A stretch of DNA of 64,000 bases from Cladopsammia gracilis (Eukaryota; Cnidaria; Anthozoa; Scleractinia; Dendrophylliidae), in NCBI GenBank assembly GCA_022457155.1, contig JAJGOT010000138.1, positions 462,501 to 526,500 on the forward strand, in the 5' to 3' direction. Under the pieces are notes generated by a model. The model ran no database searches, was not told the origin of the DNA, and worked only from the letters and a program-made list of their open reading frames with translations. Below, piece after piece: positions 2,020 through 51,314 of the stretch; position 1 is the first letter of the stretch, and every line of letters begins with the position of its first letter. Made by a program: the position numbers and the translations under genes.

Positions 2020-3505
2020 TTAGTCCATGATAAAGTCATTGAATCTAGCAGGTCTTACAGGCACCCGCCCGCTGCGGGTTCTGTAAGCTGTGGCTGGGCA
2101 CGTTGCTGAGGTTCCTGTGGTTCTGCTCTCTGGCAGTGGCCCACTCTCCCACTGTTGGCCATCTGATGAAACCCCTTTCTCCGCATCTATTGCAGTAGTA
2201 GCTTCTTCAGTTACCTCCGGGACTGGCGACTCTGCAGGCGGTTCGATGTCCTCGATGTGTTCGTACTTTCGCAGGTGCCTTCGGTTTCTGATGTACACCG
2301 TCCCATCCGCTTGTACTTCATAGGACCGGGGACACACTTCCTTTACCACCTGTCCATCAGCCCAGTCTTTCTTTCCAAGGGTAAATGGCTGAAGTTTCAC
2401 CCTGTCTCCTTTATGCAGCTGTTCTAGGGTCTTGGCTCCCCTGTTGTAATAGTGTTGCTGCTTGGCTTGTTTCTTGAGAATGGTGTCCGTGATATTTTGA
2501 ACCACGTGAGGCTTCAGTAGGCTTGTGGAGACTGGAAGAAGGGTCTTTGTACTCCTGCGCATCATTCTTTGGGTTGGGCTCGTGTTGTATCCTTCCTGAG
2601 GCGTATTCCGGACGTTCAGGACGGTCAAATAGAAATCATTGCCGCTCACTCTTGCCATTCGCAGGGTTTTCTTGGCTTGCTTTACTGCTGATTCGGCCTT
2701 GCCGTTGGACTGAGGGTGATGCGGACTGGTGCACGTATGCTTGAACGTGTATGCTTGAGCGAAGACACGAAACTCTTCAGCAGTGAACTGTGACCCGTTA
2801 TCAGAGATTACTTCGTCTGGTATCCCGTATCTTGCAAAGTGGCCTTTCAGCTTCTTTATGACTGTTTCAAAAGTCGTGCTGTACAGGGGGTTTACCTCAA
2901 AGAAATCAGAGAAATAGTCTACTGTCACGAGGTAGTCTTTGTTCTCGAACTGAAAAAGGTCTGTGGCGACCTTTGCCCAAGGGCGATCAGGTACTTCGTG
3001 GCTTAGGAGGGGCTCCTTCTGTTGACGAGGGGCATAGGTCAGGCAAGTGTCACACCTGGAGATGTAGTCCTTCATCTCATTGTTCATATTGGGCCAGTAA
3101 ATGCTTTCTCATGCTCTTCTTAGAGTAGACTCTATTCCTTGGTGCGCTGGGTGTAGATCCTGGATTGTTTCCTTTCTTAGTGTGTGGGATAACCACCCTA
3201 TCTCTGCGGAGTATGAGACCTTCTTGCACTACTAACTCGTCTCGAAATTGGAAATAGGGTGTTACTGCCGCGGGCGAGCTGCTCTTGCTCTCAGGCCATC
3301 CGCATTGAATAGCCGCCTTCACGGCCTGGAGGACTTCGCCTTTGCTTGTCTCATTCCTTAATCTCGCCAACTTGTCTTCTGATGCTACCATCTGGTTGAT
3401 GTCCTCTATCTTTGGCATTTCTTTGAGCTCTTCCTCAAAGTCTGACCTGACCGCGTGTACTTCATCTCCGCTGAAGTGTCTGCTGAGCGTATCCGCCAGG
3501 TACAT
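2020..3505 (-). pseudogene. Gypsy relic integrase
   Basis: Two overlapping minus ORFs (3077-3505 and 2020-3087) encode the end of RNase H (YLADTLSR), the zinc-binding linker and the integrase. The core shows the first Asp in KVATDLFQF, the second in VISDNGSQF and the Glu in HPQSNGKAES. A basic C-terminal domain follows (RVKLQPFTLGKKDW, then RSYEVQ), with an acidic tail ending near 2020. The core is intact over about 355 codons, but a frameshift near 3085 separates it from upstream pol. The layout resembles the K02A2.6-like group of Ty3/gypsy elements (inference). Confidence 0.88.
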
Positions 3506-4437
3506 TTCAGATCCCTACTTGTAATGTATGTCAAGATCATAACGTTGAAGACACATGAACATCTTTTGGAGACGTCAGGGAGCCGTGGCCAGGAACTTTC
3601 CGAATATTGTCTCCAAAGGCTTGTGGTCCGAGTCCACAACAACTTTTCTTCTGTTCGTGTATTGGTGGAAACACTCTACACCAAAGACGATGGCCAATTG
3701 TTCCTTTTCAATCTGAGCATAGTTCGTTTCCGTAGATGTAAGAGCTCAGCTTGCATACGCAATTGGTTTTGTCTTGCAACAATGAAGCACCCAGGCCCTT
3801 CTCACTTGCATCACATTGGAGTACCAGTGGCTTGCTTGATTCATAGTATTTGAGTAGCGGCGAGCTTGACATAAGTTCCTTGATGTCGTCAAATGCCTGG
3901 TCATGAATGTCCGACCAGTAGAAATCATGGTCCTTTATGGTTAACTCGCGCAATGGTGCTGAGACGTCTGATAGCTTTGGCAGGAACTTTGCTAAGTAAT
4001 TGGTCATCCCCAGGATCCGTCTGATGCCTGCCTTGCACATCAGTTGGCTTGGTCAGATTGGTGATTGTGTCAACTTTGGAGGGGTCCGCCTTTACTTCGT
4101 TGGCAGTGAATAGATGACCAATGTACGGCATGGAGGTTTGCTTGAGGGCAATCTTTGTTTCGTTTAACTTGATTCCACGCTCGCAACACCGGGTAAGTAA
4201 GACCTCTAGCTTGGTGTCGTGGTCTTTTACTGCATCGACAACCGACTCCCCGTTGCCAATGATAAGGAGGTCGTCTGCTACGGTCCTGACTCCGCCAAGT
4301 CCCTTAATGTTTTGGTCTAGGCGGTGCTGGAAAATTTCTCCTGCGGGAGAAAAACTGAAAGGCATTCTGGTCCACATATAGCGACCAAAGGGAGTATTGA
4401 AGGTGCTCAGAATAGACGAGTGTTGGTCCAGCTTAAC
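3406..4437 (-). pseudogene. Gypsy relic RT C-terminal half and RNase H
   Basis: ORFs at 3925-4377 and 3708-4040 give the RT palm and thumb and the RNase H start. The catalytic box reads VADDLLI rather than the usual YxDD. The thumb motif (MPYIGHLFT) and connection (GMTNYLAKFLPKLSDV) follow, then RNase H with LQCDASEKGLGASLLQ. The RT is cut from its N-terminal half by a TAG at about 4436, immediately after NGYW, where a Gln codon is expected. At least one frameshift lies near 4035, and the RNase H reading switches again near 3700-3640. Confidence 0.85.
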
Positions 4438-5511
4438 CTACCAGTAACCGTTCTTACAGTCCAGCTTAGTGAACACTTTTGCATTTGCTAGGTCTGGAAG
4501 GACTTCTTCAATCATCGGGATTGGGTAATGGCGTCGCTTTAAAGCCTTGTTCAGTGGCTGTGGGTCAAGGCAGAGTCGTATCTTGCCGTTGTTCTTCTTG
4601 TTCACTACTATTGCGCTCACCCAGTCTGTCGCTTGAGTGACTTTCTCGACTACTCCTTGTTGCTCGAGCTCTGCTAGATGGTCTTTCAGGGGAACTTTGA
4701 GAGCTTCAGGTATCCTTGCAGGTGGGATCTGGACTGGTGTAATCATCTCATCCACTTCTAGGTGTAGTGGTTCACCAAGTTCTCCTAGTCCTTGAAATAC
4801 GTCAGCATACTTGGTCCGTATTTCTTCCTCTGATAAGCCAATCGCACTCTGGGTCTGCACCACATGGACCTCATTCGCCCCAGGCAGCATATTTTCATGA
4901 TTAACTTGGATTAGATTCATCTGTTGAGCCGCTCTGCTTCCAAGGAGATTGATGTCCGCATCTTTATCTTCAACTAAAACAAAGTCCACCTTATACTTCT
5001 GGCTATTTTGTGGGTTTGTTAGCTGTACGCGGCATTTTCCGACTGGCTTTAGCGGTGAGGAATTGTACATCTTTAGTACTTGGTTCGTCGCTGTGACGTT
5101 ATTTTCATACTTAGTGCCACGCAGTTCACCAGACCAGATCATGTTACAGGTCACCCCAGTGTCCACTTGGAAGATCGTCTCAGAGCCACCCTTGATTTTC
5201 ATTGTCGCATGAATTTTCGACCTCAATTGCTTGCTCTGAACAACCAGGACTTCCTCTGCGGCTTCTGGGGATAGGTCCAGTGTTATGATGGAATCGCCGG
5301 AATCGTCATCTGATAGCTGTTGAGATTGCGTTACGATGTTCACTGACGCGTCTCTGGCTGGAATTTCTCTGTAAACAGACTTGGGAGAAATGATTCCGAC
5401 GGCCACATTTCTTGCATGTTTGTCCATACGCTGGGCAATCTCCTCGTCTGTGACTTCCCCCACAATAATGACAAGAGCGGATTGTTTCTCTTTCTCTTCG
5501 TGATTTTTCAT
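4438..5511 (-). pseudogene. Gypsy relic protease and RT N-terminal half
   Basis: A 357-codon minus ORF carries a retropepsin-type protease (active site VDTGVTCNMI), a linker and the RT fingers. RT landmarks are ARIPEALKVPLKDHL, KKNNGKIRLCLDPQPLN and FTKLDCKNGYW. The frame is open but ends at the nonsense codon before the catalytic palm. Upstream, the gag zinc-knuckle frame overlaps it (5306-5521), fitting gag-pol frameshift expression or a mutation. Confidence 0.85.
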
Positions 5512-5789
5512 TATTTTTCATTATTCGTTCTCTTGGTCTTCAGTGTATTAATATCTTCATCTGTTCCAGATGTTGCTGCTTTGTTCTTGAGCTCTTTAAG
5601 AGGCATACTGGTCGTTTCACCGCTTCTTCCAATGTCTACAGCACGTGAGAGGCTAAGCTTCTTTTCTTGCAACAATTTCTTTCGAATCGACTCGTCCCTA
5701 ATTCCTAGGACCAGCTGATCCCTGATAAGCGAATCTTGTAGACAACTGCAGAAATTGCATGTCTGAGCGAGCTTTCGCAATACCGTCAC
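5306..5789 (-). pseudogene. Gypsy relic gag C-terminal half with zinc knuckles
   Basis: Minus ORFs 5511-5789 and 5306-5521 encode the rear of a Ty3-type gag. The body motif LIRDQLVLGIRDESIRKKLL is diagnostic of retrotransposon gag. Two knuckles follow: CHYCGGSHRRGDC (C-x2-C-x4-H-x4-C) and CKKCGRRNHFSQVC. The upstream half lies at 6176-6449, beyond an inserted MITE. Confidence 0.8.
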
Positions 5790-5905
5790 ATGTTGATCAA
5801 TACTTTCGTTTTCTTCTTGTTTTCTTCGATTAAAGATGAACCTCTCATAGGTTTCGTTCGTTTTCCCGATGCATAACTCTTCAAATTTTTCGACTACCTT
5901 GCTAA

Positions 5906-6172
5906 GGGATGGACCATTAGAAAAGTGATGGGGGGTGGGGCAAAAGCAAAAAAAAAAAATTCCCAGTTAATTATTAAGAAAAAAAAATATTCCCACGCAT
6001 TATCGCAAAAAAAAAATCTGCCCAAGGAAAATTAAAAAATAAAGTATTAAAAAAAATATATTCCATCCATCGAGTGAAAAAAAAAAAAATTTCCACCTTA
6101 GGTGGACAAAAAAAAATTTCTTGCCTCTCCCAAAGTTCCCACCCCCCCATCACTTTTCTAATGGTCCATCCC
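5906..6172. mobile_element. 267-bp MITE with TAA target duplication (PIF/Harbinger-like)
   Basis: Near-perfect inverted repeats of about 35 bp lie at 5906-5940 and 6138-6172, starting GGGATGGACC and ending GGTCCATCCC. They differ by one G in a homopolymer. The interior is A-rich low complexity without an ORF. A TAA triplet flanks both ends (5903-5905 and 6173-6175), matching the 3-bp TWA duplications of PIF/Harbinger elements. The MITE sits inside the gypsy gag, and removing it with one TAA joins the two gag halves in one frame. Superfamily is inferred from TSD and terminal Gs only. Confidence 0.85.
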
Positions 6173-6175
6173 TAA

Positions 6176-6449
6176 GTACTTGACGGTCGGTTTCTGGTAT
6201 GAAATCCATTCAGTCGAATATTTCCATTGCATCTTCTCCTATTACCGAGAGAAGCATTGCTGTCTTGAATTTTTCATCGAAACGCTCAAGTCTGGCCACA
6301 ATCAAGTAGTTGTCCCAGGTTCGTTTGAATCGTTTCCAGTTTGTAGCAAGGTTTCCGTCAGTCTTGAGAGGCTGAGGCGGTTTTAAACTGGATGGCAGGA
6401 TTGGCATTGCTGCAGCCATGTTGTTGTATTCTCCAGGTGCTTGAATCAA
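6176..6449 (-). pseudogene. Gypsy relic gag N-terminal half
   Basis: Minus ORF 6210-6449 starts a gag with the motif NWKRFKRTWDNYLIV, typical of Ty3/gypsy capsid N-terminal regions. A TGA near 6210 interrupts the frame (FD, stop, MDF), probably from GGA. Downstream codons continue to the MITE. The likely start is about 50 nt inside the presumed primer-binding site. Confidence 0.75.
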
Positions 6450-6489
6450 TATTTCTGAAACCGGTGGTTGTTCCGTGCTGCCACTTGCT

Positions 6490-6551
6490 CACTCGTCACT
6501 TGTCTACATACATAATCTATAAAACAACCTCTCGAATTACAGTAAATCAAC
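6490..6551 (-). repeat. Terminal direct repeat of gypsy relic, right copy
   Basis: Partner of the 1890-1951 repeat. On the minus strand, TGGCAGCACGGAAC follows about 5 nt inside it (about 6470-6483). This has the TGG start of a tRNA-primed primer-binding site and supports reading the repeat as the 3' end of the 5' LTR. The primer tRNA was not identified. Confidence 0.5.
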
Positions 6552-6759
6552 ACATATCGTGACACATTTCAACTCTTTATTCTTCTTGATATTACAAGTA
6601 GTAAAGGGCTAAAGAAAACCAGCATAAGGAACTGTAAACCTATGCAATTGATAAATAAATTACTTGTGTGGTTCAAAGTATTAAGAAACAAACATTTCCA
6701 TAATGTAGCATTGTTCTGCTCATATCTTGAACTGTATAACAAATAACAAAATTTAATGG

Positions 6760-7238
6760 CTAAAGGAACTGTAAACCTGTGTGTTTACTGATTACACAAT
6801 AGCATGACAGTCTCAGCTGCGGATGACATTTCCCCCTTTGGACACTTTGCTCAATAAAATTTGTGAGCATGTCACCACAAATGCAACACTTGTCATCCTC
6901 AATTTGGGCCTTTTGCAAGCCACAGGAACAATAGCTATTATCCCTCTTTGGAATGTAAACATCGTTACTAGCTTTGTACTGACATGTGGTAAGCCCATTA
7001 TCTGGTAACCAAATGAGCATCAAAAACTCATGCTGAAAAATATCAAACCATTGGTTTTTAGATGAGCTGTTCTCTGACAGTTTCTTGAGGACAATATGTT
7101 TTGCCTCTCTCCCCTCCATGGTCACTGTACCTAGTCCCTGGAGATATTTCTGGAACAGCTGTTCTGCATGCTGAGGGACAACATGCCCAAGTGTCCAAAC
7201 TGTTGGTGTGACTACAGAGGGGAGAAACAAAGCATTTG
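6760..7238 (-). pseudogene. DDE-transposase-like gene, C-terminal segment
   Basis: Last segment of a long minus-strand gene whose other parts are at 11351-11632 and 14732-17268. The strongest landmark is MEGREAKH (Glu codons at 7114-7116 and 7105-7107), preceded by VVPQHAEQLFQKY. The order H-V-P, about 20 residues, then S/M-E-G-x-E is reminiscent of the RAG1/Transib block that carries the third catalytic acidic residue. A Cys-rich tail follows (CSCGL, then CCICGDM), a possible zinc finger. The gene ends near 6760 with an A/T-rich 3' flank of about 200 bp. The relation to RAG1/Transib is motif-level inference only. Confidence 0.5.
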
Positions 7239-7291
7239 TGACCCTCCATACGAAAACACGTCTTATCAAACATTGTAATTTAGTGAAACTG

Positions 7292-7440
7292 GGTTTCAAA
7301 CCCCCTGAAACCGGGTCTCCAAAGGGTTTCCAAATGGTTTCCAAAGGGTTTCCAAAGGGTTTCTAAGGCGTTTCCAAAGGGTTTCCAAAGGGTTTCTAAA
7401 GCGTTTCTAAAGTGTCTAAGCGCTTCCGAAAGGGTTTGCA
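7292..7440. repeat. Left subterminal array of GGGTTTCCAAA units
   Basis: About a dozen degenerate 11-bp units lie just inside the left TIR of the 4.1-kb element. A motif GGGTTTCAAACCC, itself palindromic, starts the array and recurs near the right end. Confidence 0.85.
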
Positions 7441-7659
7441 AACTCGTCGTACCGTTTAATCAGCCTTGCTTTTGTATCATATCATTGAAAGCTGTAACTA
7501 AGAAGACGTAATGAAAATTACCTGCAACATGTTGTTCCAACTAATTTCTGTGTAAAAATATCGAAGCCCATTTATGTTCACGTCAGCGTTAAAACTTTAA
7601 AAAATCGCGGCGTGTTCTCTTTCGGACAGATGAAACTCACGCAAGATCATAAAATTTAC

Positions 7660-11183: not shown

Positions 11184-11280
11184 AGCGTTTCCAAAGGGTT
11201 TCCAAAGGGTTTCCAACGGGTTTCCAAAGGGTTTCCAACGGGTTTCAAACCCTCCGAAACCGGGTTTCCAAAGGGTTTCT
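11184..11280. repeat. Right subterminal array of GGGTTTCCAAA units
   Basis: Counterpart of the left array inside the right TIR, in direct (not inverted) orientation relative to it. It includes the block GGGTTTCAAACCC followed by GAAACCGGGT, shared with 7292-7330. Confidence 0.85.
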
Positions 11281-11350
11281 AAGTGACCTCAAACCCCCCA
11301 AAAAACACTTTTGTTGATAAGACGTGTTTTCCTATGGAGGGTCACATTTG

Positions 11351-11632
11351 CCCTGAAGTACTGTTGGCATTTTACTTGAAGTTCCAAGAGCTGGTCGGTT
11401 GTAATCTCAACCCGACTAAACAAAGAAACAGAGTCACGCAGCCTTACTCCAATATATGCATAAACAAGAACTGTTAGCCTTTGCTTCCTAGATTCATCTT
11501 CACATCTCAGTTGTTTAATTACCCTCATGAAGTTTTGACAGAACATTCGAGACTCCTTTCCAGTAAATCTATATTGAAGCTCAGCACCCTTCCCCTGGGT
11601 TTCACCATACCATTTAACTACTTTTCTAGCAA
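11351..11632 (-). pseudogene. DDE-transposase-like gene, middle segment
   Basis: Open minus frame between the two inserted transposons. It encodes a helical stretch including VVKWYGETQGKG, RFTGKESRMFCQNFM and SLFSRVEITTDQLLEL. The right end continues in frame from 14732 once the 3.1-kb element and one CAA are removed. The left end continues in frame to 7232 once the 4.1-kb element and one CATTTG are removed. I recognise it as part of a multicopy family in coral genomes but know no experimentally assigned function. Confidence 0.6.
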
Positions 11633-12059
11633 TAGTCAGGTACACGGGAGCCCAAAATGTGACACCCACAGGCATTTTTGTCTGATTTTTGGCAACATGG
11701 CTATTTCTACTAACTCGAGTACGCTGATTTCGAAAATCATTGTTGCCAAGCTCAATTCTTGTGTTAAGATGGTGTTTTGGGGCATTTCATTATGATGTCA
11801 TTATCCAAATAAGGAGTTTTCTTTCCTTTAGCAATTTTAAGTTTAATAGATCCAGAAATTCTTTCAAAGCGTTGTTGGTGTACTGGAAAGATGATTCTAA
11901 GAATTTCTGACAGTTTTAACGTTGTTTCTATGAAGATCGAGAAGTCACGTGACAATCGACCACGCCCTGTTATGTAAAATTCACCTTATAACGGTATAGT
12001 TTTGACTTTTGTTGAAAAACGATTGTGATTCTTGTATTAATAAAAAGTTGCAATTGAAA
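11633..12059 (+). repeat. Left long TIR of the 3.1-kb element
   Basis: Inverted copy of 14303-14731. The outer end is TAGTCAGGTACAC and the inner end lies near GCAATTGAAA. Mismatches and small indels are scattered along its length, so the insertion is not recent. Confidence 0.9.
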
Positions 12060-12486
12060 TAAGAAAGGAAAATGTTGTCGTCATGCCACGCTGAAGCTAC
12101 GAGCTAGCGAGCATCGAGAACGACGTCATGACAATGTCCATATATCGAGTTTTCCCTTGTTTCAGCATTTGGTGTTAGCTTTATAGTCGGAAAATGGAAA
12201 TAACATCATCGTTGTTACAGTTGGAGATAAAACTTTGTTTGTCTTGTGTATTGCTGAATCTAAGTCATTTCATAATGCACTTTGTCTGTCACGGGCTCAT
12301 GAAGGTGACTTTGGGTGAATTCATGTAAAATTAACGAATTCAAAATATCAAGACGTTGCTCCTTACTCTCAGGTTTAAATCTGTCTATAATATTGTTAAT
12401 CAATATTGTAAATATTATTAATAAATCCTCTAAACTCTTTCAAAAACACTGAATATTGCTTTTTATACAAGCGTCTTTAAAGCGTT

Positions 12487-14314
12487 TTAGCGCAGGTTGA
12501 TGCAGCAATTAGCGTCGGTCTTGGTGCATCCACACAGCCCAGTGCACACAACATGCGACTTTCTGCATTTCATACAGCGAAGAGTCGCGCAGCCAGTGGT
12601 GCATCGGCATGAAACCATCTCCAGACAAGCCTTCGGGATTGGATCTAGTGTCATAAATACAGGGACCAGTAAATCTTCTGCTAGCGTCCAGCCTGTCTCC
12701 TCTGGGTTAGGAAGCACCGGTTTCTGAATGTGTGCCTGGCGCCACACCGCCGTTTGGTAGTAGCATCTCTTCAAGTGTTGCTTGAACGCGTCACTAGGAG
12801 GTGGTAACTTTTCTGGGCTACTGACCTTGCCAAATAGCACAACACGAGCCAAGTCCAATGAGTCCTCCGATGTCTTGTACATTCGACAAACAAACTTCTC
12901 TGCGGATGCGATGGTGTCAGCATCGAGGACGTCTTCGCCCACCGAAGAGAGAAGGTCAAAGTGCTCTGTAAAAACCTTCCACGCAGTCTTCTTTGAATGT
13001 CCACAGATGAACGAGGTGCTGTCACAGCCGGTGATGGCGTGAAATGGTAACAATGCACTTGACGAGTTACGAGGAAGATTTGCTGAGACCTCCTCCAAAG
13101 GTATGTACTTTGGCTTCTTTGAAGTTCCTGCCCATATCCACACCTTTGATGAGAGCTTAGCGCGATGCGCCAGGAGAAGTAACAGCACGTCTGTGTCTCG
13201 AGCGGAAACTACTATGTTGTCAACATGGCCGTTAAGACAGACTGCATGAAGAACAAACCTCGTATCGGCTTCTTCGTGGTTGGATCTCAAAACGGTTACA
13301 TCAAGGCTATGATCCGAGCAGAGAACATCCCCTTCGTTTGAACAACCGCCAGATACTACGATTGTAGTGTCAGCGGGTGCTTGCGCGATAAGTTCGTCTG
13401 AGAGAAACCGTGCTAAGTCCGCTTTGTTGTCTCCTAGTGCCAGAAATGCTTGCCACTTCATCGGCAACGGAACCTCTCTTCCTTCAATAACTCTGCGCAC
13501 AGACAGCGCCGTGTTCTTGGAGCGTCGACTTCTTGTCGTTGCTTTGATGGAGTACCTCTGATAACGATCGAATAACACATCGATCCTCTGGTATACAGAA
13601 CCTTTCCGTAACACAGCGTCCACGTAGCAGTCCGCAAAGCCACCGAAAGTCTTTGCTTTTCCTGGTTTTCCAATAGCTGCCACCAGAGCAAAGCCGTCCA
13701 TGAACAAAGCAGCATTTCCTTGAAGTGTAACTGACTCCGGGCACTTGACCTTTTGTCTCATAACGTCTGCTAAAATAGACTTGTTTCCCGTTCGCATGGT
13801 GTGGTTCACTTCTGCGAGAGACAGTGGCACCGGCATTAGTTCATGCTGCAATATGGCTTGCATGTTTACCTCGCGTCCGGCTTCATACGCCGTCACTAGA
13901 CAACATAAGATACTCCGGTCCATTTGTCTGTGACGAGAACACCCCAAATGTTTGTAGTGTAGAATGTAGAGCATTCTCAGCTTCATTATCTTGCTTCTGT
14001 CTCTCCCTGGCACTCTCCTTGTGGATCAAGCGGTCGTCGTGGTGTATGTCAAACATCGCTGATATTTGCGCAGCAATGTGGGAACGCAGGTTGTAGGATA
14101 GAGCCCATCTGCTAAACGCGGAAGGTGTCTTTGTGATGCCGACGATGCCGCCACCCTTCTTTCCAGTCGCATTTAACCATTCCTGAGCCTGATCCGGACT
14201 TACTTGATTGAATTTGGCGCTGGACGCGAGCGTTTGACTACAAAATTGTCTCTCTGAAATTCTTCTAGCACCTGTGTAGGAAGCTGGTGCATCTCCGCAT
14301 GTTTTCAATTGCAA
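12487..14314 (-). pseudogene. FEN1/XPG-like PIN-domain nuclease with Cys-rich tail
   Basis: Two overlapping minus frames (13883-14314, then 12487-14013) read as one protein of about 600 residues with a single frameshift around 13925-13970. The N-terminal part has SPDQAQEWLNATGKKGGG and YNLRSHIAAQ. The nuclease region shows the FEN/XPG order of acidic sites: FMDGFAL, VLFDRYQRY, NHEEADTRFVLH, SARDTDVLLLLL, then HAITGCDSTSF with a GHSKKTAW helix-turn equivalent. The last about 40 residues hold repeated Cys pairs (CRCTTGC, CMKCRK, CGC, NCC). The start near 14314 is just inside the right TIR. Apart from the frameshift the domain looks intact. Function is inferred from motif order. Confidence 0.72.
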
Positions 14315-14731
14315 CTTTTTATTAATTCAAGAATCACAATCGTTTTTCAACAAAATGTCAAAACTATACCCGTGATACGGTGAATTTTATATAACAGGGC
14401 GTGGTCAATTGTCATGTGACGGCTCGATCTTCATAGAAACAATGTTAAAACTGTCAGAAATTCTTAGAATCTTCTTTACAGTACACTAACAACGCTTTGA
14501 AAGAATTTATGGATCTATTAAACTTAAAATTGCTAAAGGAAAGAAAACTCCTTATTTGGATAATGACATCTTAATGAAATGCCCCAAAACACCATCTTAA
14601 CACAAGAATTGATCTTGGCAACAATGATTTTCGAAATCAGCGTACTCGAGTTAGTAAAAATAGCCATGTTTCCAAAAATCAGACAAAAATGCCCGTGGGT
14701 GTCACATTTTGGGCTCCTGTGTACCTGACTA
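14303..14731 (-). repeat. Right long TIR of the 3.1-kb element
   Basis: Inverted partner of 11633-12059, ending CCTGACTA at 14731 and followed by the CAA duplication. Confidence 0.9.
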
Positions 14732-16197
14732 CAAGGCAAGAGCACTTCAGCTCATACCAAAGAGCTGTTATTACTCGATGAAAACAGCTCTCAACAGGCA
14801 CATCAGCAAAAGTCTTGCAGGTGTCAGGGAGTTTAGACTTGGACATTGCCCCTTTAAGTACCCCCTTAAAATAATGTTGCCAAGCATTATTTTTTAGATG
14901 TAACGGCTCAACATGAGCCAAATCTATATATTTACCCACAAGAGGCTCAAATTCTTGCCTACTTTACTTTGTAGCAATAAAGCTAGTCACCTTTGAACGA
15001 AAATTCTTAGCCTTCAGATGCTTTGGCAAAGTTTCTTTGAACTTTGCAACTGACCGTGCTACTTTCACCCTTTCATTATAGTCCCATACTTTCCATTTGC
15101 AATTACCAGTGACAAATTGGCCCTCTAGGTCCCCATAGTCGTCAGTGCTAACTGTTGCAAAAGTTCAAAAGTAATGAGCAGAATTAGGCAACTCCCCTGC
15201 TAAGGCGGCAAGCATTTCCATGTCATTTGGAAGTTCTTTAAATTTGAATGTGACGTGAAAACCCTCAATAGCAAAAACCTTACCTTCAAGATCTCTCATT
15301 TGCTTACATGCATATTTAACATTATTTTGTACCATGCCACAGCATTCAGACTCGCAATTTGCACCAAAAAATACAAAATTATCAGAACTTGATGCAACTT
15401 GCTTTCCAACATTTAAAAAACTGACAGGAAAGGAGCAAGCATTCTTGTTCTTCCCAAAAGGGCACCCATCGCCACCTAATCCTACCAAAAATGTCTTTCG
15501 GTCTCTGAAAAGCACTGAAGAGCCTCATTAGACTTGTTTTTAGCTGCAAATAGAACTTCGCAAGCCAAGGGAGATAATCCCTTAAATCCCTGAAACAACC
15601 ATGTACAAGCTCATCAGCCTGAATATAGTTAGAAAACTCCTCTTCAACTGAGTAAACCTTTCCGATATCTACTTGCTTGATATGACTTATTAACTTATAA
15701 TATGGCAATAGTTTGGGAATTCTGCATTTTTGCATAAAGCACAATGGTGCTCTGCCTCCTCGCTTTTTTGTACTAGGCTTTGTTGCCAAAACAAGTCTAA
15801 CTGACTTATATTTTCTCTTGCCATTACGCCCCCACTATAATAGCAGGCAGTACTCCGAAGAACATTTTCATTTGAAGATTCGAATGACCTTATTTTTTGA
15901 GAGGAAGGTGTGATGCTACCCTAGCGTGCAGCTTCTCATTACTAGAAACAAGTTTGGTCATGTCGTCTAGCTTACTCCTTTTGCATAAGGTATCAAACAT
16001 GCCCTAAATGGCAGGACATTTGTTTTTTTTTCTGTTCCTCCATGAATGACCATGGCAGCATTGAAGGTTTCATGACGAAGTTTAACAGCTGTCCTTGGAG
16101 TCTGGTTTGACTTCCCATTCTTAAGTATGGTGGAATTCTTCTTGCTTATATAATAATAAAAACACAAAGAACAACCACCTTTTCTAGTTTGGCACAA
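14732..16197 (-). pseudogene. DDE-transposase-like gene, N-terminal and core segment
   Basis: Minus pieces at 15967-16197, 15382-15789, 15165-15515 and 14735-14939 belong to one protein. The core has GGDGCPFGK (Asp codon 15468-15470), FGANCESECCGM and FKELPNDMEML (Asp 15222-15224), followed by GELPNSAHYF. This spacing of Asp residues, with the Glu block at 7105-7116, suggests an RNase H-fold DDE enzyme. Frameshifts occur near 15510-15530 and 15990-16035. In-frame stops occur near 15166 (TGA) and 14983 (TAA). A Cys/His-bearing N-terminal region (CALCKNAEF) precedes the core. The copy is dead even without its insertions. Confidence 0.55.
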
Positions 16198-21340: not shown

Positions 21341-22383
21341 AGATGCAAAAAGTAAAGCTTACTGATCACCCAGTGAAGGACGAAGACACGATCAAGTTTC
21401 CTGTGAAAGGTGTAGAGCAAAGCATATTCCGCAGAGATTTTAAAATACAAGGAGTGGTCGGAGACCCTGGGCAAAAAGATAAGCTGGGTTATCAAGCTCT
21501 AATATCCCAAGTAGAGTCAGGGCTTGCCAAAGAATACTCAGACAAAGAAGTAGTTAGTGCTGTAGTTCGTGCTGTACAGCCAGGCCTGCAACTATGAAGC
21601 TATCTAGAGAACATGACTGACCTTACCCTACCCAGGCTGCGTAAAATTATTCGCTTCCATTTTCATGAGAAAAATGCCACAGAACTTTACCAACTTCTAA
21701 CAAACATTGCCCAGCAGTCCAATGAAGATCCAGAGTCCTTTTTGATGAGAGCACTTACAATTAGGCAGAAGGTTATCAGTGCGTCAAAAGAGTCTGATAG
21801 TGGGGTTAAGTACGATGCTTCCTCAGTGCAAAGTTTGTTCCTGCATGCCTTGGAAACTGGTCTTGCTGATGAAACCATTCGTGCAAAAATAAGACCTCTC
21901 ACTCAAAACCCAAAAGTTGCAGATGAAGACCTCATTGGAGCAATGAGCCTAGCCATATCTGCAGAAGCTGAGCGAAGTAACAAGTTTAGTCTTAACAGCA
22001 AAGGGAAGTCGGCAAAGGTGTCGGTCATTGAAGGTGCAACAGAAGCAACCACCAAGAAAGAGTCACAGAAGGACTCTCAAGTCCTAGCTACATTGAAGGC
22101 TGTACAAGCAGAGCTGGCCACAGTGAAATCGGAAGTCAAAACCCCTCATGAAGAAGCAAGCCACCAGAAAGCAGATGCCACGGTACCTGGTTACACTGGG
22201 GGTCGAGCGAGAGCTGGACCCAGGCCACCTGGTTGCCAAGAGTGTAGAAGGAAAAAACAAGGTGACCGGTGTCCACACTGCTACCTCTGTGGGGGCTCGA
22301 ACCATATTGCCCGCTACTGCCAGACCAACTTCAGAAGATATCTGGGAAACGCAGCCAGGCTACCCCCACGGGACAGGGAGTAG
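20983..22383 (+). pseudogene. Gypsy element 2 gag with CCHC knuckle
   Basis: Pieces at 21154-21597 and 21613-22383 form a gag of about 450 residues. It has an acidic coiled region (KKELGELESKQ), capsid-like sequence (PRLRKIIRFHFHEKNATELY and LETGLADETIRAKIRPL) and the knuckle CYLCGGSNHIARYC. A TGA at about 21595 (QPGLQL, stop, SYLEN) is a likely CGA to TGA change. The shared TAA in the duplicated 5' units removes the native N-terminus. It is homologous to element 1 gag at 28500-29560. Confidence 0.88.
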
Positions 22384-23294
22384 CCGTGCCAGAGAAAGAG
22401 AAGTCCCACCAGTGTAGTTGTTGCCTAAAGCTTGATTGCCATATACAGTTGTTACAGTGTTCAGCATGCCAGTCCGTCCGATATTGTTCTGTGCGTTGCC
22501 AGAAGGCTCATTGGCCAAAACATAAAGTGTTATGCAAAGTAATCAAGGAACTCTCTGACAGAGGATCGTTTAAAGAAAAGGGGTTAGGTGATGCCCAAGA
22601 CAGTGGTGTGTATGCTAGCCACATCACTCCCAGGCAACAAGAACGCATAGTTAAGCTGGTGGGGAGGAAGTGTCTGGTAGATTGTTACTTGGATGATAAG
22701 CCTACAGAAGTGTTATGGGACACAGGGGCCCAAGTATCGATTGTTTCGGTAGATTTCCTAATGAGCCAATTACCAACAGTCCAAAGAAGGGACATTAAAG
22801 AGTTACTTGGAACAGACGGGTCCATAAGTTTGCAAGCAGCAAATGGAACAGATATCCCTTACTGTGGATGGGTAGAGATTGGAGTAAGGCTAACAGATGA
22901 AAATGAGACAGAAGTAAAGGTTCCATTCTTGTTAACAAAGGAGAATATTGAGCAGCCCATTATTGGATTTAATGTCATAGAGTTAATGGTCAGCAACACA
23001 GAAGACAAAGAAGATGATGCATTGCTGGGAAGGATGTCAAGGAGCTTCAGGATGAATGAATGTGGTGATGTACAAGCGTTGATAAGTCTAATACGTACTA
23101 CGAACTCTGAACTCTGTCTAGTAAAATCTTCAAAGAAGCCACACATTGTTCCAGCAGGGGAGACTGTTCGTGTACCTTGTCGTGCTAACACTGGACCAAT
23201 CCACCAAAAGACCCCAGTTATTTTTGAGCCAGATGAGTTGGCTACCTGGCCTTCAGGGTTGGCAGTACACGAATCCCTTACCACCGTGAAGTAG
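22269..23294 (+). pseudogene. Gypsy element 2 MYND finger and protease
   Basis: The frame overlaps the gag end. A MYND-type zinc finger (CSCCLKLDCHIQLLQCSAC, then RYCSVRCQKAHWPKHKVLC) lies at about 22410-22535. A retropepsin follows with LWDTGAQVSIVS (about 22717-22752) and a GWVEIGVRL strand. MYND fingers are normally protein-interaction modules in eukaryotic regulators; here one lies between nucleocapsid and protease. The frame stops at a TAG near 23292, before the RT linker. Confidence 0.9.
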
Positions 23295-23321
23295 GGCGAT
23301 ACAACCATCTTACCAATCACA

Positions 23322-24535
23322 GTGACCAACAACACAAACCATGACATCGTACCTGGAAGAGTTGTCCTGGGGCGGCTTCATCTTGTCCGGTCGGTGACGC
23401 CAGTGGAAGTCAGATTTAAAGATCCAGAGACACCGACCCCATGCGAAGAACCGCCTTCTAAACCACTTACGCCAGCTGAGCACACTGCAAATAACTTGTC
23501 TTGGCTACCTAAGGTCGATTTGAGTGGACTAACAGAAGAACAGAAGCTACAGGCAAGACAGTTGTTAGTTGAGGAAGCAGATGCATTTGCATCAAGTGAT
23601 GAGGACATTGGCTGCATTGCCGAGCTGGAAATGGACATCAAACTAACCAGCGACCAGCCAGTACAGAAGAACTATACTTCCATACCTCGTCCACTCTACC
23701 CAGAAGTTAAAGGATACATCGAGGACTTGCTTAATCGGGGCTTCATTAGAAAGTCAAAGTCACCGTTCTCGAGTAGCGTAGTGTGCGCAAAAGAGATGGG
23801 GTAATGAGATTGTGCGTGGACTACAGAGAACTTAATAAGAAAACAGTGCCAGACCGACATCCCATCCCTCGGATACAGGATGCTCTAGACAGCTTGGGGG
23901 GCAAATCATGGTTTAGTGTTTTGGATCAGGGGAAGGCGTACCATCAGGGCTTTATTGGAGAAAACAGCCAACCATTCACTGCATTTGTGACCCCTTGGGG
24001 ACTTTACGAATGGGTGCAGATACCATTCGGACTTATGAACGCACCAGCGAATTTTCAAAGATTCATGGAGAATTGTCTTGGAGACCTGCGTGATGAGGTA
24101 TGCATTCCGTACTTGGATGATGTTATTGTATTCTCAGAAACATTTTCTGATCAAATTGAACACCTTCGTAAAGTTCTCCGTCGGTTGAAGAGTAACGGTG
24201 TTAAACTTAAGCCTAGGAAGTGTGCATTGTTCAAGCGAGAAGTGTCTTTCCTTGGAAGGGTGATCTCTCAAGATGGGTACCAGATAGATCCTAAAGCTAC
24301 GGATGCAGTGACTGCAATGAATAACTTAAAACCTCGAACCGTTGGCGAAGTAAGAAGACTCATGGGTCAGCAAAACCTGTTTATGATCTCGTCAACCATG
24401 ACCTATCCGAGAAAAATAGTTCTACCTCGACCCGACAGAAGCCAAAGCTGCGTAGTGGACAGTAACCATCCACTTCACCAGTGGTGTGGGAACCTAGGCA
24501 CCAGTCAGCATTGGATGCCCTGGTGGACAAGATAA
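23322..24535 (+). pseudogene. Gypsy element 2 reverse transcriptase
   Basis: ORFs 23322-23804 and 23783-24535 give a near-complete RT split by a frameshift at about 23790. Motifs: [65 protein letters not shown] and the catalytic box [10 protein letters not shown]. The thumb [13 protein letters not shown] follows. Another frameshift near 24400-24480 leads into RNase H. Confidence 0.93.
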
Positions 24536-25794
24536 CATCACCCCCTCTGCTTGCATACCCAGATTACAATGCACCATTTATTGTACACACATATGCATCA
24601 CAGGATGGCTTGGGGGCGGTCTTGTATCGAAAGCAGAATGGCACTACACGGGTAGTTGCATATGCATCCAGGACTCTGACTCCGCCTGAACAGAACTACC
24701 ACATGCATTCCGGCAAGCTTGAATTTTTAGCGTTGAAATGGGCAGTCACAGAACAGTTCAGGGACTATCTCTATTATGCTCCTGAATTTGTTTTCTACAC
24801 CGACAACAATCCCTTGACTTATGTGTTAACAACTGCCAAGTTGAATGCCACAGGATTGAGGTGGGTTGGAGAGCTTGCTGACTTTAACTTTGAAATACGA
24901 TATCGACCAGGCAGGTTGAATGTTGATGCGGATAGTCTTTCCCGATTACCTGGTGAGTTCAAGACCTACATGGACACTTGTGCTGAGAAAGTAACTCCTG
25001 AAAGCTTGCATGCCTCAATATCTGCCATCCAGGCATTGTCAAATGAAGAATCAAATTGGCTGACAGCTTTGAGTGATGAAGAAAAGGAACTCCACTATGT
25101 TGACGCCCTGTCACAAGCATCCTGCAATCAAGTGAAAGTGGTGGATTTAGTAAAAGCACAGAGCAAAGACCCTCACATTGGACGTGTCCTTAAATTAATC
25201 AATGCAAACCACAAGCTAACAGTTGCAGAAAAGCACAAGGAAGCACCTTTGGTTCGTAAGCTCCTGAATGAGTGGCACAAGCTTCATATAAACAGTAAGA
25301 GTGGATTACTTTATCGTAACCAGCAGGTTGTTCTACCACAGAAATTTCGTCGCACTGTTTATCGTGAACTCCATGAAGAAATGGGCCACCTTGGTGTTGA
25401 GAGAGTGTTAGCTCTGGCTCAAGAGAGATTTTATTGGCCACACATGAGGAGAGACATTGAAAACTTTATCCATCACACATGCCGCTGCCAAAAACAGAGA
25501 CGCCCAAATCTACAAACAAGAGAACCATTACAACCAATTCTCACAACAGTTCCTCTTCAAATGGTTTCTATTGATTTTGTGCACCTTGAGCGGAGTAGAT
25601 TCTGGTTGTGGTCGATCACTTTACCAAGTACACTCAAGCATACCCAACTAGGAATAAAACCGCTGTTACTGCCGCAGACAAGATCTTCAATGATTTCATC
25701 CCATGCTTTGGATTTCCCGAAAAACTCCATCATGACATGGGAGGCGAGTTTGAAAATCGTTTGTTCAAGAGACTTGAAGAACTTTCTGGAGTAA
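24481..25794 (+). pseudogene. Gypsy element 2 RNase H and integrase N-terminal part
   Basis: RNase H reads IVHTYASQDGLGAVLY. The Asp expected in HTDAS is Tyr (TAT at 24592-24594), removing a catalytic residue. Other RNase H signatures (YTDNNPLTYVL and DADSLSRLPG) are intact. The integrase zinc finger has HEEMGH and CRCQ around FYWPHMRRDI. The frame leaves the integrase core near 25600 by a frameshift, just after VSIDFVHLE (first catalytic Asp). Confidence 0.92.
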
Positions 25795-27077
25795 TGCACT
25801 CTAGAACTACTTCATATCACCCACGAGGAAATGGTATAGTTGAAAGAATGAACCGTACACCACTCAGTATGCTGCGAACTCTACCAGAAACTCACAAATC
25901 CAGCTGGAAGGACCATGTGAACAAACTCATTCATGCATACAGTTGCACTGTTCATGAGTCAACAGGTTATTCTCCTTTCTTCCTGTTATTTGGTCGCAGT
26001 CCACGGCTACCAATTGATGTCATCTTTGACCTCGAGACAAAAACAGGAGCCAGAACACATGCTGAATATGTTACCAAGTGGAAATCTGCAATGCAAGAAG
26101 CTTACTCACTCGCATCAAAATCTGCCATGAAGAATGCCCTGAGAGGAAAAAAGAACTACGACAGACGTGTGAGGTCATCAGCATTACAAGTGGGAGATCG
26201 TGTCCTGGTGCGCAACCTTACTCCTCGGGGTGGACCTGGGAAACCTCGTGCCTTTTGGGAAGACCAGATTCACCTAGTTGTTGCAAGAAAGGGGGAGGGG
26301 AGCCCTGTGTACGACATAAGACCAGAATCAAGTCCAGGACCGATCCGTACTTTGCATCGAAACCTGTTACTCCCATGTAACTATCTACCAGGGAAGCCCT
26401 GGGAGGAACTCCCTCCTGTAAAGAAGACAAGAACGGTAGCACTCAACCATTGTGTTGACACCCAACCACCAGTACAAGAAGAGAACAGAAGTGACAGCGA
26501 AGATGACCTTCCAGACATTTCATTCTGCAATCGCTCGCCAGAACATGATAGAAATGGCCTAGCACGGACACAGGTAGAGTCTACACGAGTAGAACCAGAG
26601 CCAGACGTTGCGGATGTTCATTCTGGTGACACATCGAGTGAAACAGAGACAGAAGCCAACATTACTGTTGCTCCAGAGGAGGCACAGCTGATAGAGGACC
26701 ATCAAGAAGTTGGGGGAGAGAGGGATGAGCAAGAGGACACGAGCAACGAAGGCCGACCTCAACGCCTGAGGCAGGCACCTAAACGGCTTACTTATGACAG
26801 TCCTGGGGAACCAACTTACGTGCGTCAAGTTAAAGTCAACCCCTCTGATGGAATACAGCAGTGCGGAATACCGCCGACACCACCAATGCCATACGTAGCT
26901 GAACCCCCTGTGAACCAGTACGGTATGCTGCTGCCAGTCTTGAACTATATGGCTCCACCAGTACCACCGATGATGTTCTGGAACGCGAACATGATGATGC
27001 CTTATATGATGCTCTATCCAGTAGTACCGCAGCTGCCACAATGGGGAGTGCCTTACCAGCCATTTCAGTGCAGATAA
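25608..27077 (+). pseudogene. Gypsy element 2 integrase core and Pro/Met-rich C-terminal tail
   Basis: About 490 codons. The core shows HHDMGGEFEN (second Asp) and RGNGIVERMNRT (Glu). A chromatin-like or GPY/F-like C-terminal domain follows (VGDRVLVRNLTPRGGPGK, then SPVYDIRPE). The last about 200 residues are unusual: an acidic stretch rich in E, D and T, then a Pro/Met/Tyr-rich end (PPVPPMMFWNANMMMPYMML). No signal peptide or hydrophobic transmembrane segment argues for an env gene. The UTR 27078-27401 has no ORF. Confidence 0.9.
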
Positions 27078-37665: not shown

Positions 37666-39231
37666 TAATTGTAAATGTTAAAGACGTCTGGCGGCACAGC
37701 TGCTTCTGTGAGGTTAGGAAACAATTCGAGTCTACGGAATTGATTCTCAAAAGCGCGGTCAAGGTGCCAACGCGACAGTAAATCCGCGGCGCGATTCTCC
37801 TGACCCGACAAGTGAACGGCGCGCATTTCAAACTCCAGAGAGGCGGTGACAAACCAGATTTCGCGTAGAATGCTAGCCAGCGACTGATCCTTCACCTTCC
37901 CCGACGTGAGCGCGGAAACTACGGCTGAGTTGTCACAAAACACTTGAATACCTAAACCCGCCCATAAGTGACCCCACAAGGGAAACTAAAATGGCTAGCG
38001 CTTCCAACAAATGAATTTCGGGAAACTGAGCGATGACGTCTGAAGGAAACACCACGTGGAAATACTGGGACTGAGAAAGACCGCCACATCCTGATAAACA
38101 AGCATCCGTGGAAAAGACAGTATCGGGTTCAGTCCATTGCAGAGGAGAAATAATTGAAACGCCGTTGTAACTCCTCATGAAACGAAGCCACCACGCAATA
38201 TCCTTACGAAACTCCCCAGTGAGACGAGTATGGTAGGAATTCCGTTTTAGTGTTCTCAACAATGCTAAAATCCGAGACAGAAACAGTCGACTCTGTCGTA
38301 CACATTTGGAAACGAACGAAAGTTTACCAGGTAGCGATTGAAGTTCAGCTTTAGTGGCAGATCGCCGGACAGACCATGAACTCAGGAGCGACTCAATTTC
38401 TTCCAAGCGCTCCGGTGTGACCGACATTGTCATTTGTACAGTATCGAACTGTACACCCAAACAAGTGGCGATCGTGGCGGGAGGGCAAGCTTTGCTAGGA
38501 GACTCATCTAGACCAAGTTCCTCCAGAGGAAGACCACAATGTTCGTATCCCTGCCACGCTGTATCGGGAGTAGCTATCCCAATAAAATCATCCAGATAAC
38601 TGAGTGTCTGATGCCCTTCAGCCTCACAAATATAACAAACTGCCGTAGTAATACGTTGACAAGCTATCGCGGCCGACCGCAAACCCATTGGCAAAACAAC
38701 GTCAAAATAGAGATCATGTTTCCAACAATAACCCAATAAAGGGTAGTCCCGAGGGTCCACGGGAAATTGACGGTAAGCCAGTTTTAGATCACGTTTGTAG
38801 ATTAAACAGCCAGTGCCTGTAGACCAGATGAGAGACGCAATGTTATGCACAGTGGGATATGTCAATGAAATCTCTTCCCCTAAATAACTGGAAGAGGAAA
38901 TTCCATCGTTCACTGAAGTGCCGGCAGGCCAACTTAAATCCACGATGATTCGATGCTCAGCTGAATCTTGTTTTGGCACTGTGTTCAACGGAGACGATAC
39001 AACTGGACACGAGAAAGGGTTTGACGTGTAAGGCCCTATTACAGCGTTCTGAGACCTCTCAGTTAACAAGTAGGCGTCAATTGTATCGGGAAATGACAAC
39101 GCACCCTGATGATTTCGCAATTGACTGAGTGGAAAACCATATGTGGAATAATCGTAACCAACGGGCCAGCCGTACTCCAGAAATTCGCATATCTGAACGT
39201 CGGAATAATTACTCAACAAGAAGCTGTACAC
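37662..39231 (-). pseudogene. Ngaro A reverse transcriptase and RNase H
   Basis: The main frame 37933-39231 (432 codons) has TVPKQDSAEHRIIVDLSWP, YKRDLKLAYRQFPVDPRDYP, LPMGLRSAAIACQR and the catalytic box LSYLDDFIG. RNase H begins STDACLSGCGG. The rest lies in the frame 37662-37979 (FCDNSAVVSAL, then HLSGQENRAADLLSRW). A frameshift near 37950 or a programmed shift separates them. Otherwise the domain is complete. Confidence 0.92.
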
Positions 39232-46113: not shown

Positions 46114-47223
46114 TTATTGAACGCTACAGCGAAGAGCAATAAAAAGAATAAAACCCCAAACCCAAGAGGGGAAGATGAAATGATAATGAAAGGATAAATT
46201 GGAAAGCCTGGCAGAAATAAAATGCAATATGTCAAGTTTCTTCTGAGTAGATAATTTAAGATAAACTAGATAAGCGTCGCTTCGCCAGTCGCCCTGCGCT
46301 TTGATAAATTCAGTAGGTGCACCACAATTGAAAGCAAAAGTAGCTCCCCCTTGACGAAAACTGCGCGAAGAAAAATTGCAAGAGTTAAGACCCACCGATG
46401 CTACACACGATTTGAAAAAACGGTTGAAATGAGTGGCGAAGATAGGCCTAAGTTCGCCACACTGATAAAGAACAAACAAAGGCGAATTAGCTTGTGCCGG
46501 CACCATGCTTAGATAACGCTTCAAGGCGGTGACCGGGCACAACACAGAATTGGGAATAAACGGCAATGGAATTTCGAGAATGCGCTGGTGAAATTGAATT
46601 GTTTTGGTCCTGTAAACCTTAAGAACAGCTCCCGTAGAATTAAAAGAGACATCTTCGCGCTTGAGGAAATAAGCATTGCCGGACTGGGTGTCTGCTAAAG
46701 AATACGGCATTAAATTTGAAATTCTGAGAAATGAGAAAAAGGCAACTAAAAACGCTGCATGCATACAAATATGTAATGGTAGAGACCAATTAAAATATTT
46801 AAACGCATTCAAAAGAATATCAACAGTAACAGGACGAGTGGTGCGTACAGAGTCGTCCATGACACATCGAAGACCATGCTGCATAAGAACTACATCATAA
46901 TCTCGCATGAAGGAAATATCAGCACCAAGGGACCTGTTGATATGCTTAAGAATGTTGATGTAATTAAGTAAAGAACGATAACAAGATAACGACTTCGAGA
47001 GAAAAACTAAATAAGCTAGGAAAGACTGCTTAGAAACAGGAAACGGAACTAAACCAAAAATTTCACAAAACAAAAGATAACTGTTCAACTGAGTTCTCAA
47101 GTTCGCCTTTGTCGACTCCTGGAAGGCAAAGGACTGAAGCTTGTTGGCGTAATCCACCAGTGGTACCACACTTTCTGCAAAAACAGAAGTTCTACTTGAA
47201 GACCCTGTAGCTTGTGAGCCCAC
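46114..47223 (-). CDS. Ngaro B tyrosine recombinase (His site altered)
   Basis: An open frame of 369 codons. N-terminal part: STKANLRTQLNSYLLFCEIF. Core: FFSFLRISNLMPYS (Arg), then SSRSFRQGGATFAFNCGAP, where copies A and C have HSFRRGG, so the catalytic His is Arg here. The C-terminal Tyr lies in SDAYLVYLKLS. The last about 30 codons run into the B1 repeat. It is intact in length but possibly inactive. Confidence 0.88.
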   Translation of the reverse strand: MGSQATGSSSRTSVFAESVVPLVDYANKLQSFAFQESTKANLRTQLNSYLLFCEIFGLVPFPVSKQSFLAYLVFLSKSLSCYRSLLNYINILKHINRSLGADISFMRDYDVVLMQHGLRCVMDDSVRTTRPVTVDILLNAFKYFNWSLPLHICMHAAFLVAFFSFLRISNLMPYSLADTQSGNAYFLKREDVSFNSTGAVLKVYRTKTIQFHQRILEIPLPFIPNSVLCPVTALKRYLSMVPAQANSPLFVLYQCGELRPIFATHFNRFFKSCVASVGLNSCNFSSRSFRQGGATFAFNCGAPTEFIKAQGDWRSDAYLVYLKLSTQKKLDILHFISARLSNLSFHYHFIFPSWVWGFILFIALRCSVQ

Positions 47224-50321: not shown

Positions 50322-51314
50322 GTGTATCTGATGCGGTTTGTCGTTGGCCAGGATAACAGAGAGGACTACCCTTATTCTAACACACCTGATGAACAGCAAT
50401 TGTTTCTTGATAATTACTCAATACACAACGCTTCTGGTGCGTCATCAGCACCAGCGAGGAAGGCAGGTGCACCAAAACCAAAGGCAGATTATGGAAGCTT
50501 CTCAGTGACAACCCAGTTTCCTCCATCTGTATCCATTGCCTCATTGCTTGAAGCTGGAAAGCTTGTTAAACCAGTAGCCAAAAACAAGCTAGTGCTAACC
50601 TTTGAACAATTTGACATTGCCTCCAAAAAATGGACTGATGCAATGGAGGTAGAGTGTACAGTAGATTCAGAGAAGTTTTCCTCAGGTGGATTCCGTGATG
50701 CATACCACTGCATGCTAACTGGCAAATCAGCCAACCAAAACATCGCAAATCACTGGGTGATAAAAACGTACAATGAGAAGTCCGAAGAAGCAATCCATAC
50801 TAATTTTGAAACAAATATAGAGAGCCATTGCCGTAAACAAGTTCAGATGCATGAGGTAGCCAGGCACTTAACAAAAAAGTTCAAGTCACAGGCTCCAAAA
50901 CAAATGGGAAAATGTTTTCAGTACAACCATGTATATTACACCACAATAAATGAGCAACCTGCTACAGTTGAGGAATTTGTACCAGGACCCTTTGTAAAAC
51001 TGATAAATAATGATGGTAAGAAAGCCAAACTGCCAGAAGAGGCAGATGATGAACTGATAGAGTTGTTTGAGAAAGCAGAGTGCCTGGTACACTACACATA
51101 TGTGTCATCCAATGAAAAACTCATGCTACTGGATATACAGGGATCTGGCTTCTGTTTATATGATCCTGAAATAGCAACAAATGAGGTCATGGATGCCAGC
51201 AGCATGGAATTCTATTTCTGCTGTGGAAATTGTTCAACAGTGGGCATCACAGGCTTTCTTAATGTACATGAGTGCAATAACTACTGTAAAATGATGGGTT
51301 TAAGCCAATCATAG
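50322..51314 (+). CDS. Alpha-kinase domain exon (eEF2K/MHCK-type)
   Basis: A 330-codon open exon after the acceptor at 50321, ending in TAG. Alpha-kinase landmarks: KFSSGGFRDAYHC, HWVIKTYNEK (invariant Lys), VYYTTINEQPATVEEFVPG, LLDIQGSGFCLYDPEI and the C-terminal NCSTVGITGFLNVHECNNYC zinc-binding and activation region. This is a complete atypical Ser/Thr kinase fold. It continues the frame of the exon at 44219-44518. The exon itself has no stops, so the gene may be functional if the upstream stop is bypassed. Confidence 0.92.
   Translation: MYLMRFVVGQDNREDYPYSNTPDEQQLFLDNYSIHNASGASSAPARKAGAPKPKADYGSFSVTTQFPPSVSIASLLEAGKLVKPVAKNKLVLTFEQFDIASKKWTDAMEVECTVDSEKFSSGGFRDAYHCMLTGKSANQNIANHWVIKTYNEKSEEAIHTNFETNIESHCRKQVQMHEVARHLTKKFKSQAPKQMGKCFQYNHVYYTTINEQPATVEEFVPGPFVKLINNDGKKAKLPEEADDELIELFEKAECLVHYTYVSSNEKLMLLDIQGSGFCLYDPEIATNEVMDASSMEFYFCCGNCSTVGITGFLNVHECNNYCKMMGLSQS

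Follow-up and report, generated by a model that had tools for sequence, protein, structure and literature searches.

In the 64,000-nucleotide stretch of DNA analyzed here (the window), positions 11633 to 14731 hold a transposable element with long terminal inverted repeats (TIRs), flanked by a short target-site duplication and carrying two partly overlapping frames on the minus strand. Its features are as follows:

11630–11632: target-site duplication CAA, left copy, a direct repeat with 14732–14734
11633–12059, plus strand: left terminal inverted repeat, 427 bp, 95.1% identical to the right repeat
12487–14013, minus strand: 508-aa frame with a FEN1/XPG-type nuclease; likeness to relatives starts at about residue 32, past junction 2
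12490–12627, minus strand: Cys-rich C-terminal tail, of lower model confidence (pLDDT 62–70)
12667–13785, minus strand: 5'-nuclease (FEN1/EXO1/XPG) fold, residues 77–449 of the 508-aa frame
13883–14314, minus strand: 143-aa frame, a transposase remnant that starts past both conserved Asp residues and keeps the conserved Glu (QEW)
13919–13921: junction 2, a deletion of about 0.26–0.27 kb, present in 3 of 15 copies (the window copy, L031, which is its duplicate on C299, and L014)
14297–14298: junction 1, a deletion of about 4.2 kb relative to copy L026, with the N-terminus and both conserved Asp residues gone
14303–14731, minus strand: right terminal inverted repeat, 429 bp, aligned to the left repeat
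14732–14734: target-site duplication CAA, right copy, a direct repeat with 11630–11632

A preliminary description, made from the sequence alone, had delimited the element by 427-bp inverted repeats, an exact CAA duplication and restoration of an interrupted host frame on removal, and all three observations hold. Element positions 1–427 and 2671–3099 align with 95.1% identity over 429 columns, and the two CAA copies directly abut the repeats. When the element and one CAA are excised, the host flanks (11291–11632 and 14735–14962) read as a single open frame of 190 aa, for which 138 relatives were found at E ≤ 0.001. Among the 120 listed, 86 cross the join by 20 residues on either side, and 74 of those 86 are ungapped within 15 residues of it. 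The family is unnamed, a Pfam scan of the host-frame pieces having matched no family, and is present in cnidarians; named relatives include Desmophyllum pertusum, Stylophora pistillata, Nematostella vectensis and Hydractinia symbiolongicarpus. Because in-frame stops occur farther out, on its outer side, the interrupted host frame is itself probably a relic. Short tandem repeats with a GGGTTTCCAA-like unit lie beside it at 11200–11290.

Coding content of the window copy

The listed GTG start of the 508-aa frame is mechanical; in frame, ATG first occurs at codon 10. Its product carries the acidic motifs DG, FD, EEAD, DTD and GCDS, which are conserved in relatives: in an 80-row alignment D149, E247, D273 and D275 are invariant, and D106, E248, D250 and D331 are conserved in at least 90% of rows. 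A structure model and fold comparison give a PIN-like 5'-nuclease fold, which together with the order of the motifs bears out the earlier nuclease call; the Cys-rich tail is likewise confirmed by Cys columns conserved in relatives (alignment A3). The product thus resembles the Rad2/XPG 5'-nucleases (EXO1, FEN1, XPG) in fold and in the order of its acidic residues, but its identity to EXO1 is 11%, and its full-length relatives differ from these enzymes in having the nuclease fused with both a transposase region and a Cys-rich tail. Pfam searches with the 508-aa and 143-aa frames returned no family and a PDB search with the 508-aa frame matched no chain, while profile A1 had a single PDB match (E 0.47) that we take as chance. 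Matches to pieces of copy L009 all stayed below threshold.

Positions 12487–14314 had been read as one product; this reading fails, for the 508-aa frame (12487–14013) and the 143-aa frame (13883–14314) are out of register. The accompanying statement that there is no DDE domain is correct insofar as the window copy lacks a complete D-D-E core, but one piece of that core, with the conserved glutamate of QEW, survives in the 143-aa frame. In the short copies this remnant begins near residue 844 of relative P0135, past D473, D639 and H668 and before E881.

Sibling copies and the shared deletion

Copies were sought in the 878-Mb genome by TIR searches, so the census gives lower bounds. Genome-wide, 29 exact matches to the 13-mer TAGTCAGGTACAC were found, and it proves nothing alone because its reversed control matches more often (170); 13-mer matches on C987 and C1002 were rejected as element copies, with no TIR past the 13-mer. 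The first 268 bp of the inverted repeat have at least 33 genome matches. The preliminary description had proposed looking for other copies with the same ends, and ten further paired copies were fetched. Together with the window copy and without L010, whose flanks are identical to those of L009 at 297 of 299 positions on each side, these make 10 independent paired insertions; L020/L031 were also left out of the count: they are 98% like the window, flanks included, and the C299 copy duplicates the window locus. Exact target-site duplications flank eight of the 10, with a length of 3 bp at six and 4 bp at two (chance probability 4e-12), and at the remaining two, L009 and L016, no exact flanking duplication was found. 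On C319, two copies (496380–501928 and 686703–692078) lie about 190 kb apart; their 299-bp flanks match at 297 positions on either side, which suggests a segmental duplication or an assembly duplicate.

The copy closest in content to a parent is L026 (on C995), in which one end carries the shared inverted repeat and is followed by both Asp residues, the His and the nuclease motifs, spread over several broken frames; an N-terminal C..C exon was seen by eye. Its far end is missing and the Glu of QEW reads Lys. A longer sibling with the same TIRs and a transposase had been named beforehand as evidence against a nuclease-only element, and L026 is such a sibling in that it holds the D-D-E region, but it has one end and broken frames, and the RNase H fold of that region comes from a model and the conserved triad. 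Part of the transposase region is also kept in L009 and L010, where a deletion from L026 position 5613 removes the first Asp (5652). Among the copies reached by TIR searches, no intact full-length copy was found.

Breakpoint 1 is common to 11 of 15 copies (the window copy, L011 to L018, L021 and L031), some of which differ by 1–2 bases beside it, and is absent from L009, L010, L026 and L028. The deletion, about 4.2 kb relative to L026, has 2 bp of microhomology. L011, L012 and L028 (7.2–8.7 kb) were rejected as full-length elements: both L011 and L012 show breakpoint 1 and contain further inserts. Within L028, positions 3837–7605 are a nested DIRS-like element with reverse transcriptase, RNase H and a weak tyrosine-recombinase match.

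The parent protein in full-length relatives

A relative search with the nuclease as query, with an upper length limit of 1.75 times the query, yielded 59 proteins longer than 508 residues among the 120 listed. With an 888-aa relative as query, 139 proteins were found at E ≤ 0.001, of which 120 were listed; 34 of the 102 proteins counted (the 888-aa query and 101 new identifiers) are 1,500–1,555 residues long. These relatives of about 1,530 residues combine, in a single protein, a zinc-binding-like N-terminus with conserved C..C/H..C groups, a D-D-E region that is DUF6589-like, the nuclease and the Cys-rich tail. DUF6589 is matched in Pfam at E ≤ 0.01 by 20 of 31 long relatives; scores are low, with 1 of 7 relatives scanned at the curated cut-off and 2 of 7, P0146 among them, without a match.

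Among 87 relatives chosen for alignment, a subset of those found, and with gapped rows excluded from each count, the first triad column is D in all 65 rows, the second is D in 76 of 78 and the third is E in all 87; the His after the second D is present in all 79. In a model of P0146 (1,145 aa; pLDDT 87.9, pTM 0.80), the first Asp is part of a strand, the second immediately follows a strand, and the Glu sits in a helix preceded by a long helical insertion. This is the order of the D-D-E residues in RNase H-like transposases that contain an insertion domain. Foldseek gave weak matches to the transposase part, with ISCth4 transposase at probability 0.28 and RAG1 at 0.12 (E above 1), and fold searches with the whole 1,145-aa model barely probed this part because 5'-nucleases headed the lists. 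Based on the model and the conserved triad, the transposase part of the parent is a candidate RNase H-like D-D-E core.

Origin, mobilization and class of the element

Taken together, we consider it very probable that the element is a non-autonomous, internally deleted derivative of an Academ-like (AcademX-type) cut-and-paste transposon that is moved in trans; it is not a nuclease-only transposon family. The parent would have encoded a single protein of about 1,530 residues, composed of a zinc-binding-like N-terminus, a DUF6589-like D-D-E core, the FEN1/XPG nuclease and the Cys-rich tail, and one deletion of about 4.2 kb would have taken away the N-terminus and the two conserved Asp residues. 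The deleted derivative would then have been mobilized in trans by full-length copies while further deletions accumulated. Observed among the elements of this scheme are the shared ends, the short duplications, the shared deletion and the coding content of the parent-like copy and the relatives; as for the chemistry, full-length protein from other copies may bind the TIRs, the D-D-E core would cut and join the ends with a 3–4 bp stagger, and the nuclease may process branched or flapped strands, by cutting the second strand or trimming the joint. Internally deleted DNA transposons of the Ac/Ds and P/KP kind have the same ends as their parents, an internal deletion and movement in trans. The present element resembles them in all three respects, and differs in that its remaining coding part is a nuclease domain.

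The preliminary description had offered two alternatives, and the first, an Academ derivative keeping only the nuclease, fits best. The second, in which the nuclease is itself the mobilizing enzyme of a separate transposon family, is extremely improbable. It could draw on the nuclease frame being open in both the window copy and L014, which are independent insertions, and on their 7 synonymous and 8 non-synonymous differences (pN/pS 0.35, one-sided P 0.043). However, L011 and L018, a pair with broken nucleases, have an even lower ratio (0.22, P 0.010), so the window/L014 value is no sign of selection; ratios for the window copy against the 14 other copies range from 0.32 to 1.20, and the pair L013/L015 has 0 synonymous and 13 non-synonymous differences. 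Nothing indicates selection on the short form. Moreover, element positions 1190–1722 (about residues 221–397), and with them EEAD, DTD and GCDS, are deleted in L011, L016 and L018 alike, and a common 80-bp deletion shifts the frame in L013, L015 and L017, yet these six copies lie at different sites, five of them with their own 3- or 4-bp duplication (L016 has none). The nuclease is not needed in cis for movement unless each copy broke after inserting, which is unlikely because the deletions are shared among copies; an intact nuclease could still act in trans. Finally, L026 keeps a D-D-E region, and the full-length relatives hold the D-D-E part and the nuclease within the same protein. A very unlikely addition to this account is that the window copy and L014 do produce their nuclease-only protein and that it works in trans, either as a nuclease helper or as a regulator competing with the full-length protein; if true, this would account for the open nuclease frame at two insertions.

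The class assignment of the trans-mobilized derivative relies on published descriptions. Excerpts of PMC9587614 treat Academ as a DDD/E transposase superfamily, and those of PMC10045372 give AcademX 3- or 4-bp target-site duplications and an encoded nuclease, tie two Academ lineages to a helicase and a nuclease, respectively, and suggest that these enzymes relate to the differing duplication lengths. From similar extracts, AcademH helicases are treated in PMC10799480, curated Academ elements in a bivalve study average 5,565 bp (PMC10294476), and the accessory enzymes of other transposons include the nuclease TnsA of Tn7 (PMC3627910). In our literature search no paper was found that joins Academ, XPG and transposon. 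Kojima is said to have described the AcademX nuclease in 2020 as XPG-like.

Of the AcademX traits, the 3- or 4-bp duplication is present at 8 of the 10 independent paired insertions, and a nuclease stands beside the transposase in L026 and the full-length relatives, the transposase part being incomplete in the window copy. For the DDD/E transposase, the triad is conserved and placed as expected in the model, fold matches are weak, and the window copy, unlike AcademX elements, has a remnant without the core. AcademX membership, matched by description rather than by curated Academ sequences, is therefore likely. The parent could instead belong to a D-D-E plus XPG superfamily outside Academ, alike only in its nuclease and its duplication length, given that the Academ likeness comes from published descriptions and that Pfam names the region only DUF6589; this is unlikely, as the combination of a nuclease, a DDD/E transposase and 3–4 bp duplications is that of AcademX in the excerpts available. 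This account removes the claim of a transposon driven solely by a flap nuclease, and the nuclease-only element looks ordinary beside its longer relatives. The parent architecture also connects DUF6589, an unnamed family in Pfam, with a probable transposase, and opens the nuclease's role to testing.

The window is rich in mobile-element frames. Gypsy-type retrotransposon-like frames lie at 21613–27077 on the plus strand (gag, protease and reverse transcriptase by eye), and an integrase core match within 25608–27077 (E 1e-4) is below the curated cut-off. On the minus strand, 37933–39231 and 46114–47223 match RVT_1 (E 2.4e-5) and, weakly, a tyrosine recombinase (E 0.005), both below curated cut-offs, a pairing as in DIRS-like elements. 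A 330-aa open frame at 50322–51314 on the plus strand encodes an alpha-kinase domain (PF02816, E 7e-29).
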